From contig NZ_JADMNM010000001.1 of NCBI RefSeq assembly GCF_016461955.1, positions 243,598 through 307,597 of the forward strand: a stretch of DNA of 64,000 bases. Direction: 5' to 3'. The DNA is from Qipengyuania sp. YIM B01966 (lineage in GTDB: Bacteria; Pseudomonadota; Alphaproteobacteria; Sphingomonadales; Sphingomonadaceae). The notes beneath the pieces are model-generated. The model made no database searches, was not told where the DNA came from, and saw only the letters and a list, made by a program, of their open reading frames with translations. Shown in pieces: positions 3,630 to 39,523 of the stretch (its first letter is position 1; every line of letters starts with the position of its first letter). Made by a program: the position numbers and the translations under genes.

Positions 3630-4331
3630 ATGGCCTATACCGACAGCAGCACCTGGCGCGACCGCCCCGCGGCGATCGCCGGGGTCGTACTGGTACACGG
3701 CGCGCTCGCATACGGCCTGCTGGCGGGGCTCAGCTACACGGGCATCATCACCCGCGATGAGCCGCTGCCGAGCTCCTATTTCCCGACCACGCCGCCACCC
3801 GAACCGACCCCGCCCGAAGCCAAGGCCGAGCCGCGCGAAGCGGCCGCTCCGCTGCCCTATCAGCCGCCGCGCGCGGTGGAGCTGGATACCCGGACACCGC
3901 GGATTGACAGCAGCACCATCATCCTGCCGCCGCTGCCTGAGGTCGTGCCCGATCCGGGCTCCGGTACGCTGCCTTCGCCCGGGCCGAGCGAGACGGTGAT
4001 GCCGCAACCCTCGCCCTCGGTCACCGCGTCCACCCCGCCGCGCGCCGCCCGCCCGCGCAATGCCGCGCTCGGCTGGGTGACGCAAGACGACTACCGCGCC
4101 AGCTGGATCAACCGTGAGCTGACGGGCAGCGTCGGCTTCGTGCTGGAGATCGATGCGAACGGCCGCGTGGCCAGCTGCCGCGTGACGCGCCCCTCTGGGC
4201 ACAGCGAACTCGATCAGGCGACTTGCGCGCTGATCAGCCGGCGCGCGCGGTTCGAGCCGGCCCGCGACAGCAGCGGCGCGGCGGTAATGGGCAGCTATAG
4301 CGGCACCGTCACCTGGACGCTGCCCAACTGA
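3630..4331 (+). CDS. TonB-family energy transducer
   Basis: A 233-residue inner-membrane protein. It has one hydrophobic helix near residues 15-35, a proline-rich periplasmic linker (about 45-145) and a C-terminal TonB-like domain (about 150-233) ending with a GTVTW beta strand. TonB couples the proton motive force, through ExbB/ExbD, to outer-membrane receptors; exbB and exbD are not adjacent. A ribosome site AGGAGA lies 8 bases before the ATG. The upstream palindrome suggests metal- or nutrient-responsive control. A receptor gene is present at 40.3 kb, but nothing shows the two are partners. Confidence 0.85.
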   Translation: MAYTDSSTWRDRPAAIAGVVLVHGALAYGLLAGLSYTGIITRDEPLPSSYFPTTPPPEPTPPEAKAEPREAAAPLPYQPPRAVELDTRTPRIDSSTIILPPLPEVVPDPGSGTLPSPGPSETVMPQPSPSVTASTPPRAARPRNAALGWVTQDDYRASWINRELTGSVGFVLEIDANGRVASCRVTRPSGHSELDQATCALISRRARFEPARDSSGAAVMGSYSGTVTWTLPN

Positions 4332-4335
4332 CCGT

Positions 4336-4545
4336 TCAGCGGGCCGGTTGCTGCTCCACCAGATCGACCGGCGCGGCGCCGTCCTCGCCGGGGACGATCC
4401 AGATCGCCACATTGGCAAGCGCAATTACCGCCAGCAGCACCATCAGCCCTGCCTGCTTGCGCGCGCCGCCGCGCCGCCACAGCCAGAATGCCCCCGCCAG
4501 CAGCGCAAAGGCCGCCAGCATCACCACCGAAAGAACCAGGTCCAT
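4336..4545 (-). CDS. Small two-helix membrane protein
   Basis: A predicted 69-residue protein with two hydrophobic segments (about 3-22 and 33-50) separated by a basic loop RRGGARKQ, then an acidic tail. It is convergent with the tonB-family gene, with stops only a few bases apart. The hydrophobic-basic-hydrophobic pattern and codon use support it as a real gene. No family is recognised. Confidence 0.55.
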   Translation of the reverse strand: MDLVLSVVMLAAFALLAGAFWLWRRGGARKQAGLMVLLAVIALANVAIWIVPGEDGAAPVDLVEQQPAR

Positions 4546-4653
4546 AATCGCACCCTAATCCAGCGCGCGCGCCGGAACCAGCCCGCGAGAGGCCGGTTAC
4601 ATAGGCACGGCAGGCGAAGGGCGCCCGCCGGCATCATTCAAGGGAGCCCGGCA

Positions 4654-5049
4654 ATGGGTATTTTCAGCTCGATCAAGAATGCGATCTTCGGCCGCAAGGA
4701 CGACGAAACCCCGGCCACCGCACCGAGCGGCACCTTCACCCCCGCCGGGCAGCCGACAACCGGCCCGACCGCCACCCCGTCAACCGCCGCCGCCGTCAGC
4801 GATGTCGATGTCGCTGCCAAGCTCGATGCGATGCCCGGCGCAGCTAACCTCAACTGGCGCAATTCGATCGTCGATCTGATGAAGCTGCTTGGTTTGGACC
4901 CGAGCATGGCCAATCGCAAGGAACTGGCGACCGAACTCGGCCGGCCGAATTACGCCGGCTCGGCGGACGACAATCTCTGGCTTCATCGCCAGACGATGCA
5001 GGAACTGGCCCGCAATGGCGGCAAGGTTCCGGCCGAATTCCTCGACTGA
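4654..5049 (+). CDS. DUF3597 family protein
   Basis: A 131-residue protein starting MGIFSSIKNAIFG, preceded by an AAGGGAG ribosome site. The N-terminal half after the start is a low-complexity Pro/Thr/Ala linker (about 20-50). The C-terminal half (about 52-131) matches the DUF3597 pattern: VDVAAKLDAM, LNWRNSIVDLMKLLGLD, LWLHRQTMQELARNGGKVP. DUF3597 has a small helical fold of unknown function. An open frame extends upstream of this ATG but lacks coding character. The gene stands alone between convergent and co-oriented neighbours. Confidence 0.82.
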   Translation: MGIFSSIKNAIFGRKDDETPATAPSGTFTPAGQPTTGPTATPSTAAAVSDVDVAAKLDAMPGAANLNWRNSIVDLMKLLGLDPSMANRKELATELGRPNYAGSADDNLWLHRQTMQELARNGGKVPAEFLD

Positions 5050-35620: not shown

Positions 35621-36772
35621 ATGACGCCTGCGGACCTGCGGATTGCCCTGTTCAGCGGCAATTACAACATGACGCTCGACGGCGCGAACCGCGCGCTCAA
35701 CCGGCTGGCCGAATATGTCATGCGGCAGGGCGCGGCGCTCAGGGTCTATTCGCCGACCAGCGACACGCCCGCCTTCGAGCCGCAGGGCGAGATCGTCTCG
35801 CTGCCCTCGCTCGCCTTCCCCACGCGCAGCGAATACCGGATGCCGATGGGGCTGTCCGCGGCGGTGGAGCGCGATCTGGCAGCGTTTGCGCCCAATATCG
35901 TCCATATCTCATCGCCCGATTTCAGCGCGCGCAAGGTGCTGAAATGGGCGCGGGCACGCAACATCCCGGTGCTCGCCTCGGTGCACACGCGGTTCGAGAC
36001 CTACCCGCGCTATTACGGGCTGGGTTTCCTCGAGCCCGCGCTGGAAGAATGGATCCGCCGTTTTTACCGCCAGTGCGATGCACTGGTGACGCCCTCGCCC
36101 AGCATGGTCGAAACGCTGCGCGAACAGGGGATGAACCGCGACATCTCGATCTGGTCGCGCGGGGTCGACCGCGAGGTGTTCAACCCGTCGCGCCGCGACC
36201 TTGGCTGGCGGCGTTCGCTGGGGATTGCTGACGATGCGGTGGCGATCACTTTCCTCGGGCGGCTGGTGATGGAAAAGGGGCTGGACGTTTTTGCCGACAC
36301 CATCGCCGAATTGCGCCGGCAGGGGGTGGCGCACCGCGTGCTGGTGATCGGTGACGGCCCGGCGCGCGGCTGGTTCGAAAAGGCGCTGCCGGCCGACGCC
36401 GCTTTTCCGGGTTTTCAGACCGGCCCCGATCTCGGCCGCGCGCTGGCGAGCGGGGATATCTTCTTCAACCCCTCGGTCACCGAAACCTTCGGCAATGTGA
36501 CGCTGGAGGCGATGGCCTGCGGCCTGCCGGTAGTGGCCGCCGGGGCGACCGGCAGTTCGAGCCTGGTCGAGGACGGCATTAACGGCCGGCTGGTCGCCGA
36601 TATGAGCGCCGCGGGCTTTGCCACCGCGCTTGCCCCCTATTGCGCCGATGGCGCCCTGCGCGCGCAGCACGGCGCAGCAGGCGAAGAGCGCGCCCGCGCC
36701 TATTCATGGGATGCGATCAATCAGGTGATGATCGACACCTATCTGCGCCTGATCGCCGCGCGCCGGGCCTAG
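35621..36772 (+). CDS. GT4-family glycosyltransferase
   Basis: A 383-residue retaining glycosyltransferase with two Rossmann halves. The N-half has IALFSGNYNMTLDGANRA and ASVHTRFETYPRYYG; the C-half has ITFLGRLVMEKGLDVF, VLVIGDGP and the donor-site motif SVTETFGNVTLEAMACGLPVV. It resembles alpha-mannosyltransferases that build glycolipids. ATG 35621 is chosen since the domain starts there. It is divergent from serC, and its stop codon overlaps that of a convergent membrane-protein gene. Confidence 0.87.
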   Translation: MTPADLRIALFSGNYNMTLDGANRALNRLAEYVMRQGAALRVYSPTSDTPAFEPQGEIVSLPSLAFPTRSEYRMPMGLSAAVERDLAAFAPNIVHISSPDFSARKVLKWARARNIPVLASVHTRFETYPRYYGLGFLEPALEEWIRRFYRQCDALVTPSPSMVETLREQGMNRDISIWSRGVDREVFNPSRRDLGWRRSLGIADDAVAITFLGRLVMEKGLDVFADTIAELRRQGVAHRVLVIGDGPARGWFEKALPADAAFPGFQTGPDLGRALASGDIFFNPSVTETFGNVTLEAMACGLPVVAAGATGSSSLVEDGINGRLVADMSAAGFATALAPYCADGALRAQHGAAGEERARAYSWDAINQVMIDTYLRLIAARRA

Positions 36773-37236
36773 CGCAGCAGGCCCCGCCGACGCATCATCC
36801 AGGCATAGGCAAACTGCGCCAACAGCGCCGCCCAGATCACCAGCGACATCAGCAGATGCGGCTGGCCCGCCAGCCACTCGGGCATCTCCATCGTCTGCTG
36901 ATAGAGCGTCGAACCCGCGAGCCCCGCCAGCGAGACGATGAAGGCAGTCACCGCATGGCGGCTGCGCATCAGCAGCAGCACGCTGCCCAGCACCGAAGCC
37001 CACACGCCCAGCGCCCACAGCGCATCGGCCCAGGCCGGCATCGACTGGAAGAAGGCCAGCGCGGCCGCCGGATCGATATTCATCCCTTCGGTCATGCTGG
37101 CGATGTAATCGACATTACCGAGCTGCGTCTGAAGGTAATCGTTCGCCGCGAAGCCATTCCAGGCAAGGCCGAGCGGCCCCACCAGCCACAGATGCCACGG
37201 TGCCCGGCCCCGCGCGCCATGTTTGTCCCTGTCCAT
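36769..37236 (-). CDS. Four-helix membrane protein of unknown function
   Basis: A 155-residue protein with hydrophobic segments near 15-30, 72-90, 95-115 and 128-147 and a basic C-terminus (MMRRRGLLR). A GGGGGA ribosome site precedes the ATG at 37236. Its stop lies in a CTAG shared with the glycosyltransferase stop. No recognisable family; the repeat of similar sphingomonad proteins suggests a conserved small membrane protein. Confidence 0.7.
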   Translation of the reverse strand: MDRDKHGARGRAPWHLWLVGPLGLAWNGFAANDYLQTQLGNVDYIASMTEGMNIDPAAALAFFQSMPAWADALWALGVWASVLGSVLLLMRSRHAVTAFIVSLAGLAGSTLYQQTMEMPEWLAGQPHLLMSLVIWAALLAQFAYAWMMRRRGLLR

Positions 37237-37328
37237 CGCCAAATCCCCCGTCGCACGCGCCCCCGCGGGGAGGATAAAGCACGGCGCGGCAATGGCAATC
37301 CGCGGCTCCGCCGCCTATCTGTTGGCGC

Positions 37329-38651
37329 ATGGCCGATCTGTTTGCCGATGATGCCCCGCCTGACCGCCCGCTGGACGATGCCGCGCCCGATGCGCCGTTG
37401 GCCGACCGGTTGCGGCCGCGCGCCTTGTCGGATGTCATCGGGCAGGAACATCTGACTGGCCTGGAAGGCGCGATCGGGCGGATGGTGGCCGCCGGGCGCC
37501 TGTCGAGCATGATCCTGTGGGGGCCGCCCGGCACCGGCAAGACCAGCGTTGCCCGCCTGCTCGCCGATGCGGTGGGGATGCGGTACCAGCCCATCAGCGC
37601 AGTATTTTCGGGCGTTGCCGATCTGCGCAAGGTATTTGCCGACGCAGATCGAGCCGCCCAGGCCGGCCAGCGCACACTACTGTTCGTGGACGAAATCCAC
37701 CGCTTCAACCGCGCGCAGCAGGACGGTTTCCTGCCGTTTGTCGAGCGCGGCACGGTAACGCTGGTCGGCGCCACCACCGAAAATCCCAGTTTCGAATTGA
37801 ACGCCGCGCTGCTCAGCCGGGCGCAGGTGCTGATCCTCCACCGGCTCGATGCGGAAGCGCTCGGCAGCTTGCTCGCGCGGGCGGAGGCGCTTGAAGGGCA
37901 GCTGCCATTGACCGCCGAGGCGCGCGAGGCGCTGATCGCCAGCGCCGATGGCGACGGGCGATTTCTGCTCAACCAGGCCGAAACCCTCTATGCCGCGCAG
38001 CTAGCCCGGCCGCTCGACCCGGCGGCGCTCGGTGCGTTTCTCCAGCGGCGGGTGGCGGTCTATGACAAGGACCGCGAGGGCCATTACGGGCTGATCTCCG
38101 CCTGGCACAAGGCGCTGCGTGGGTCGGATCCCGATGCCGCGCTCTATTACATGGCGCGGATGCTGGTGGCGGGCGAGCAGCCGCATTTCGTGCTGCGCCG
38201 GCTGGTCCGCGCGGCGGTGGAGGATATCGGCCTCGCCGATCCGCAAGCGCTGGTCCAGTGCCTCGCCGCCAAGGACGCCTACGACTTTCTCGGTTCGCCC
38301 GAAGGGGAGCTGGCGATCGTTCAGGCGTGCCTCTATTGCGCGACCGCGCCCAAATCGAACGCCGCCTATACGGCGCACAAGGCCGCTTGGCGCACCGCCC
38401 GCGAGACGGGCAGCCTCCAGCCGCCGCTGCACATCCTGGGCGCCCCGACCAAGCTGATGCGCGAGGCCGGTTACGGCGCGGGCTATGCCTACGATCACGA
38501 TGCCGAAGACGCATTTTCGGGCGCCGATTACTGGCCCGCCGAACTGGGCCGGCAGCAATTTTACGACCCGCCCGATCGCGGGTTCGAGCGCGAGGTCAGG
38601 AAGCGGCTCGATTACTGGGCGCGGCTGCGCGACGAACGGCAGGGGGCGTGA
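37329..38651 (+). CDS. rarA: Replication-associated recombination protein RarA (MgsA)
   Basis: A 440-residue AAA+ ATPase acting at stalled replication forks. Walker A is ILWGPPGTGKTS, Walker B LLFVDEIHRFN, sensor 1 LVGATTENPSFELN, and the C-terminal tetramerisation domain has YDKDREGHYGLISAWHKALRGSDPDAALYY in successive parts. Its stop overlaps the start of the next gene (GTGA), coupling it to an RNase H-like protein. Confidence 0.95.
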   Translation: MADLFADDAPPDRPLDDAAPDAPLADRLRPRALSDVIGQEHLTGLEGAIGRMVAAGRLSSMILWGPPGTGKTSVARLLADAVGMRYQPISAVFSGVADLRKVFADADRAAQAGQRTLLFVDEIHRFNRAQQDGFLPFVERGTVTLVGATTENPSFELNAALLSRAQVLILHRLDAEALGSLLARAEALEGQLPLTAEAREALIASADGDGRFLLNQAETLYAAQLARPLDPAALGAFLQRRVAVYDKDREGHYGLISAWHKALRGSDPDAALYYMARMLVAGEQPHFVLRRLVRAAVEDIGLADPQALVQCLAAKDAYDFLGSPEGELAIVQACLYCATAPKSNAAYTAHKAAWRTARETGSLQPPLHILGAPTKLMREAGYGAGYAYDHDAEDAFSGADYWPAELGRQQFYDPPDRGFEREVRKRLDYWARLRDERQGA

Positions 38652-39523
38652 GGCCCGGCCGGTTTCGCCATTTCGCCGCGATCGACTGGTCGGGTGCGGC
38701 GGGCGAGCGCCATAAGGGCATCGCGCTGGCGATTTGCGCTGCGGGCACCGCCGCCCCGCGCCTGATCCGCCCCGGACACCGCTGGTCCCGCGCCGAGGTG
38801 GCGGACTGGCTGACGGAAGCGATGCCCCAAGATACGTTGGTGGGGCTAGATATTTCGGGCGCGCTCGCTTTTGCCGATTTCGGGGCATATTTTCCCGGCT
38901 GGCAAAACAGCCCGCCTGATGCGCGCAGCCTATGGGCGCTGATCGACCGGGTCTGCGCCGACGAACCGCATCTGGGCGCAGGGGCCTTTGTCGACAATCC
39001 GGAGATTGCGCGCCATTTCCGCCGCCATGGCGGACGCGAGGGCGATCTGTTCGGGGGCGGTATCGGCCGCTTGCGCGTAACCGAGCATGACGGTCAGCGC
39101 GCGCTGGGATGCCGCCCGACGAGCAATTTCAACCTTGTCGGCGCGGCGCAGGTGGGCAAGGCGAGCCTCACCGGCATGCGCGTGCTGCACCGCGTCAGCG
39201 GAAGGCTCGCCTTGTGGCCGTTCGACCCGCTGCCCTCGCACGGGTCGGTCGCGGTGGAGATCTATACCGCGGTCGCCGCGCTCGCCGCCGGGCGCCCGGC
39301 GGGGCGCTCCAAGCTGCGCAGCCATGCCGAACTGGGCGATGCGCTCGCCGTGTTGGGCAGCGCACGCGTCAGGGGGGCAGGTCCGATCGACGATCACAGC
39401 GCAGACGCGCTGCTCGCCGCGGCCTGGCTGCGAACTATCGCGCATAATCCGTCGCTGTGGCAACCCGCCGGGATGACCCCCGACATCGCCCGCACGGAAG
39501 GGTGGACGTTTGGTGTCGGCTAA
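38648..39523 (+). CDS. RNase H-fold (DUF429-like) protein coupled to rarA
   Basis: A 291-residue protein starting with GTG inside the rarA stop codon. The opening FAAIDWSGAAGERHKGIALAI, a strand with Asp then a hydrophobic strand, together with LVGLDISGAL and a late acidic segment (GPIDDHSADALLAAAWL), recalls the three acidic positions of RNase H-like nucleases such as DUF429. This family assignment is by pattern only. Coupling to rarA suggests, but does not prove, a DNA or RNA processing role at forks. Confidence 0.65.
   Translation: MRPGRFRHFAAIDWSGAAGERHKGIALAICAAGTAAPRLIRPGHRWSRAEVADWLTEAMPQDTLVGLDISGALAFADFGAYFPGWQNSPPDARSLWALIDRVCADEPHLGAGAFVDNPEIARHFRRHGGREGDLFGGGIGRLRVTEHDGQRALGCRPTSNFNLVGAAQVGKASLTGMRVLHRVSGRLALWPFDPLPSHGSVAVEIYTAVAALAAGRPAGRSKLRSHAELGDALAVLGSARVRGAGPIDDHSADALLAAAWLRTIAHNPSLWQPAGMTPDIARTEGWTFGVG

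Follow-up and report, generated by a model that had tools for sequence, protein, structure and literature searches.

The RuvABC resolvasome pairs the ATPase RuvB with the nuclease RuvC, which cuts Holliday junctions in dimeric form. In the RuvC active site, strand 1 contributes an aspartate and further acidic residues sit where the C-terminal helix begins, an arrangement predicted to recur in the protein family described here. RarA, encoded by rarA (mgsA), differs from the RuvB of RuvABC in carrying an MgsA_C domain. It is tied to clamp loaders as well in a passage of one article (PMC8735627), and a passage of a 2014 paper (PMC3985635) places DUF429 (PF04250; COG2410, COG4328, and COG4923) with RuvC in clade D of the RNase H-like superfamily. 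We analyzed a stretch of 64,000 nucleotides from the sphingomonad Qipengyuania sp. YIM B01966, hereafter the window, in which rarA is followed by a gene whose family we label FAM. By analogy with RuvB-RuvC, this locus would join an AAA+ ATPase related to RuvB to a nuclease of RuvC type. Its features are as follows (residue conservation is for 44 diverse FAM members):

37329..38651, + strand: rarA (mgsA), RuvB/clamp-loader-related AAA+ ATPase (Pfam domains)
38648..38651, + strand: GTGA overlap, with the FAM start codon within the rarA stop (sequence)
38648..39523, + strand: FAM, predicted RNase H-like nuclease of 291 aa (AlphaFold model, RuvC-type neighbours)
38684..38686, + strand: D13, on strand 8-14, motif DWSGA (invariant, 44/44)
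38849..38851, + strand: D68, just after strand 63-67 (invariant, 44/44)
39257..39259, + strand: E204, closing strand 201-204, within motif EIY (invariant, 44/44)
39392..39406, + strand: D249-H250-x-x-D253, first turn of C-terminal helix 249-264 (alignment, model)
39497..39514, + strand: C-terminal signature EGWxxG, E284-G289 (largely common to a sister family)

The upstream gene encodes a protein of 440 aa with Pfam matches to MgsA_C (204.1 bits), AAA_assoc_2, AAA, and RuvB_N; as both the AAA+ and MgsA_C domains are present, it belongs to RarA/MgsA. The initial annotation had reported that the downstream gene starts with GTG inside the rarA stop codon, and this is what we found: the GTG (38648-38650) lies in the TGA (38649-38651), and it is the sole in-frame start codon from 90 bases upstream to 60 bases downstream of the expected FAM start. 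FAM is present in a single copy in this genome. The gene is real: its nearest named match, in Tsuneonella litorea, has 77% identity, homologues occur in 269 of 298 genomes of the window's bacterial family, and dN/dS against five relatives is around 0.2 (0.16-0.21), from which we take FAM to be a conserved protein. Just upstream of rarA and divergent from it lies a small membrane-protein-like open reading frame (ORF) (36769-37242, - strand). It was matched in 32 of the 146 loci searched; the 30 matches shown comprise its own locus, 28 others, and one in a distant family (L273), in which the counterpart sits between rarA and rluC.

Beyond the family, FAM thins out. A profile of 25 sequences (A1) matched 60 of 99 genomes at the order level, and 43 of 385 genomes of the class Alphaproteobacteria matched FAM with partial hits counted; at the phylum level, a broader profile (A2), which also catches sister-family members, matched 33 of 299. 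Given this patchy distribution in the class, RarA must mostly work without FAM. Our locus set numbers 116 besides that of the window, made up of 76 sphingomonad loci of its family and 40 from outside it. Two collections that possibly share genomes supplied the 76, and two of these loci (L025 and L048) are contigs of one metagenome-assembled genome, so that all counts refer to loci and not to independent events. Within 2.5 kb upstream of FAM, rarA was found in 106 of the 116 loci. In 80 of these it is the immediate upstream neighbour on the strand of FAM, and in 26 it lies 150-2500 nt upstream. Among the remaining 10, three break off no more than 300 bases upstream of FAM, two (L073 and L074) have rarA farther upstream behind a gene that by eye is serine-hydrolase-like, where flanks of 1.5 kb missed it, and five are rarA-free in ~5 kb or more of upstream sequence. 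The arrangement is not confined to close relatives: outside the window's family, 35 of 40 loci, spread over 18 alphaproteobacterial families, have rarA upstream on the same strand. The overlap recurs too. By raw count, a candidate start codon at -4 is present in 54 of the 80 rarA-adjacent loci, another overlapping start in 12, and none in 14. From this sequence arrangement, rarA and FAM probably form a translationally coupled two-gene unit, in which coupling would take place at the ribosome.

A gene that is lipoprotein-like by eye was matched between rarA and FAM in 12 loci belonging to the window's family (L003, at 4062-4832, L009, L018, L020, L026, L029, L031, L039, L043, L047, L060, and L068). 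In L003 the end of this gene overlaps the start of FAM.

We considered the pair against its gene-order background. Outside the sphingomonads, FAM is usually part of a string, rpoA-rplQ-degP-rarA-FAM-crcB-rluC-HAD-atp12; Azospirillum thermophilum has the string without degP, with a 4-nt overlap of rarA and FAM. In a sample of 24 rarA loci with no FAM in reach, the very next gene after rarA, and on its strand, is crcB or rluC in 16, crcB is on the other strand in 1, crcB or rluC follows after a gap in 5, and neither is seen in 2. These loci were drawn from the best 30 of 76 genomes, and L245 was excluded since FAM starts ~1.5 kb behind rarA there, beyond the flank limit. With crcB or rluC so often following rarA where FAM is absent, a conserved order carries little weight by itself. 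Other genes enter the slot behind rarA as well, which by eye are lipoprotein-, serine-hydrolase-, isochorismatase-, and EamA-like. More telling are the sphingomonads, which keep rarA-FAM in flanks that yielded none of the rest of the string: among 48 stretches (the window and L002-L048), rarA is present in 45, and tblastn found none of the other string genes beside FAM in flanks of up to ~5 kb, using queries from other families that may miss short genes such as crcB and HAD. A mirror-tree style distance test, for which 21 of 40 loci were usable, came out neutral to negative, with no signal of RarA-specific co-evolution (partial distance correlation 0.22 for FAM-rarA versus 0.25 for FAM-degP). 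Mean distances were 1.10 for FAM and 0.39 for RarA, a roughly 3-fold faster divergence of FAM.

The initial annotation had asked whether the pair could be a conserved, undescribed unit. At the level of gene order this is supported, and among the matches listed we recognised no RarA-nuclease gene pair in the titles and abstract openings of the open-licence literature. The pair is one segment of a larger conserved string, and the distances between species gave no sign of co-evolution with RarA in particular.

The window's FAM protein has no Pfam match at E<=1, neither Pfam nor NCBIfam has a model dedicated to the family, and a profile search of the PDB reached an E of only 1.4. An AlphaFold (AF2) model built from 25 sequences has a pLDDT of 89.4 and a pTM of 0.91. 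Foldseek returned no match at E<=1e-3, its first row being a RuvC at E 0.51, and a viral structure library gave nothing at E<=0.001. A second look at 365 of the Foldseek rows with VIA-align placed Holliday-junction resolvases, RuvC or MOC1, in 8 of the best 9 rows (Z 8.1-6.5, 135-150 residues), among them MOC1 (Z 8.1, 150 residues, 3.9 A), Thermus thermophilus RuvC (Z 7.6, 138 residues, 3.4 A), and Deinococcus radiodurans RuvC (Z 7.0, 140 residues, 3.8 A); a Z near 8 is common for models without clear relatives and is not decisive alone. Further neighbours were TEFM (Z 7.4, among the best nine) and MutS (Z 6.0). The fold of FAM is predicted to be RNase H-like, with Holliday-junction resolvases as its best structural neighbours. 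We also tried and rejected FAM as a P-loop protein. A GxxxxGK-like stretch at 165-171 hits AAA_16 in 7 of 25 members (best E 0.034), and its K171, invariant in these 25 close members, is not among the invariant or near-invariant positions of the broader 44.

For conservation, we used 44 diverse FAM members with a mean column identity of 41% (the alignment behind A2, which took 38 of the 40 loci from outside the window's family and excluded L118 and L135). An acidic pattern recalling RNase H-fold nucleases had been noted from the sequence, and it holds up: D13, D68, E204, and D253 never vary, the conservation of D249 is 90% or higher, and the predicted fold retains the acidic site. The putative site would be formed by D13, D68, E204, and D249/D253, with H250.

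Comparison with DUF429 and RuvC-type folds had been proposed, and both came out close on structural grounds. We modelled one DUF429 protein (pLDDT 94.9), and its top neighbours were RuvC structures (Z 9.5), so that both models have RuvC-type neighbours. When acidic placement was compared through the secondary structure and conservation of each model, DUF429 and FAM had the same order: an aspartate on strand 1 (DUF429 D8), an aspartate after the fourth strand (D50), a glutamate on the fifth strand (E138), and a D..DA motif at the start of the C-terminal helix (D195/196/199). E138 is the counterpart of FAM E204 in the hhalign register, and D195, D196, and D199 align with FAM D249-H250-x-x-D253. 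The two families differ in the insert, which is shorter in DUF429 (87 residues, versus 135 between FAM D68 and E204), in the DWSGA, WPF, and EGWxxG signatures, which are FAM's own relative to DUF429, and in context, as rarA was found in 0 of 20 DUF429 loci (flanks of up to 1.5 kb). The DUF429 Pfam profile did not match the window's FAM at E<=1, and one of 44 relatives reached E 0.0047. A profile-profile comparison with a DUF429 alignment (A3, 14 of 20 alphaproteobacterial loci, six partial or weak ones left out) was weak, with an E of 0.021 and a probability of 2.2% (reversed control, 0.39), and was in register at E204 and D253. FAM therefore looks DUF429/RuvC-type on structural grounds, but we do not class it as a DUF429 member.

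RuvC itself provides the best structural neighbours of the FAM model, from which FAM differs in its length of ~290 aa, in the extra E204, and in giving no sequence match: the RuvC Pfam profile (PF02075) had no hit at E<=1, and a profile comparison gave E 0.13 against 0.11 for the reversed control (19 of 20 RuvC loci used). This last comparison is blind, because even DUF429 versus RuvC gives only 0.21. RuvC is not known to have an acid corresponding to FAM E204. FAM as a replacement for RuvC was excluded, as the window's genome has its own ruvC.

FAM also has a homologous sister family. An NCBIfam fusion of MobB to an unknown domain (NF011066, PRK14495) matched 20 of the 44 FAM members (best E 1e-14), and a comparison of A2 with a profile of this sister family (A4, 16 of 20 loci, four fused ones excluded) gave a probability of 99.8% and an E of 3e-29 over 254 columns. 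By sequence profile, the PRK14495 C-terminal domain is clearly homologous to FAM over most of its length. The two have DWS, WPF, E-x-[YWF], and EGWxxG-like motifs in common and differ in the C-terminal acidic motif, DHxxDA being absent from the sister family in this form. They also differ in their neighbours. No rarA was found near the sister family in 20 loci (stretches of up to ~5 kb on each side), and cobalamin or molybdopterin cofactor genes are fused or adjacent to it in 6 of the 20, CbiC in 5 and MobB plus MoeA in 1. Among 10 of the 20 proteins scanned for fusions, CbiC was found in 3 (L224, L231, and L238) and MoeA in 1 (L242). CbiC is precorrin-8X methylmutase, so an RNase H-like domain is here fused to cofactor-synthesis enzymes. 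Of all the evidence, this family speaks most strongly against reading a DNA role from the fold alone.

A few loci have other genes in the place of rarA. In Azospirillum oryzae and Azospirillum sp. B510, FAM has its 4-nt overlap with dnaE; this dnaE is plasmid-borne (L294 and L295 are Azospirillum plasmids). The gene after FAM in L295 is a heparan-alpha-glucosaminide N-acetyltransferase gene, which in L294 is separated from FAM by one small gene. All six plasmid records with a FAM relative annotate it as 'hypothetical protein', and in two of them, from A. lipoferum and A. ramasamyi, neither rarA nor dnaE is annotated just upstream of FAM. In L138, a dnaE-like ORF and then an NYN-domain-like ORF (both by eye) precede FAM. 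In a genome of another class of the same phylum (G878, locus L300), a distant relative of FAM or of the sister family lies behind an ORF that by eye is tRNA nucleotidyltransferase-like.

The overlap of a gene of predicted RuvC fold with that of an ATPase related to RuvB suggests that RarA may have a partner that nicks or resolves DNA. We tentatively propose, at a little under an even chance, that rarA and FAM are a two-gene unit in which FAM, likely a metal-dependent RuvC-like nuclease, acts with RarA on branched or gapped DNA. RarA would remodel or hold DNA after RecA-mediated strand exchange, and FAM, made alongside it, would nick the branched or gapped DNA that RarA handles. Judging from the model, FAM is most likely an RNase H-like enzyme of RuvC/DUF429 type whose acidic residues would bind metal for cleavage. 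The retention of rarA-FAM in sphingomonads and the dnaE overlap in the two Azospirillum records also speak for the proposal. Against it stand the lack of a Foldseek match at E<=1e-3, the weak DUF429 profile comparison, the missing sequence match to RuvC, the patchiness of FAM, the distance correlation, the five loci free of rarA, and the two plasmid records annotated with neither rarA nor dnaE. A more ambitious form of this proposal, in which RarA-FAM is an alternative alphaproteobacterial ATPase-nuclease machine parallel to RuvB-RuvC and RarA delivers or activates FAM at post-replication gaps, we regard as unlikely. The initial annotation had suggested a nuclease made together with a fork-repair ATPase. 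The predicted fold and the acidic site favor its nuclease half, and the sister family, beside cofactor genes in part of its loci, tells against it. A nuclease role is a reasonable but unproved reading, to which the sister family provides a serious rival.

On that rival view, FAM is an enzyme of RNase H fold whose substrates are nucleotides or nucleotide-linked cofactors instead of DNA, and its place beside rarA is simply inherited order. We consider it somewhat unlikely. The homology to the sister family, with its cofactor-gene fusions or adjacency and its rarA-free loci, the very existence of the MobB fusion PRK14495 in NCBIfam, and the position of FAM within a long conserved string whose genes are for the most part unrelated all speak for it; the sister family lacks the DHxxDA motif in FAM's form, however, the sphingomonads keep rarA-FAM where the string was not found around FAM, and the partner in the two Azospirillum plasmids is dnaE. 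It is quite unlikely, in our estimate, that FAM binds branched nucleic acid without cutting it, as a structural partner or regulator of RarA. TEFM and MutS domain II reuse the fold in this way and are among the structural neighbours, and the site may be rewired, E204 being an acid that RuvC is not known to have; yet four acidic positions invariant in 44 members at 41% mean column identity are not expected of a protein that only binds. Finally, FAM may be unrelated to RarA, having landed behind rarA in an alphaproteobacterial ancestor, with the overlap reflecting the packing of compact genomes. The frequency of crcB or rluC directly behind rarA in loci without FAM, the entry of other genes into the slot, and the absence of a RarA-specific co-evolution signal are consistent with this. 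Against it, rarA-FAM persists in flanks that yielded none of the other string genes, and -4 candidate starts recur despite the faster divergence of FAM; we judge it improbable.

The rarA-FAM pair offers a concrete way into the function of RarA, as a conserved, probably co-translated, nuclease-like partner is a direct handle on it. If RarA and FAM do form an ATPase-nuclease machine, the obscure RarA/WRNIP1 family would gain a catalytic output.
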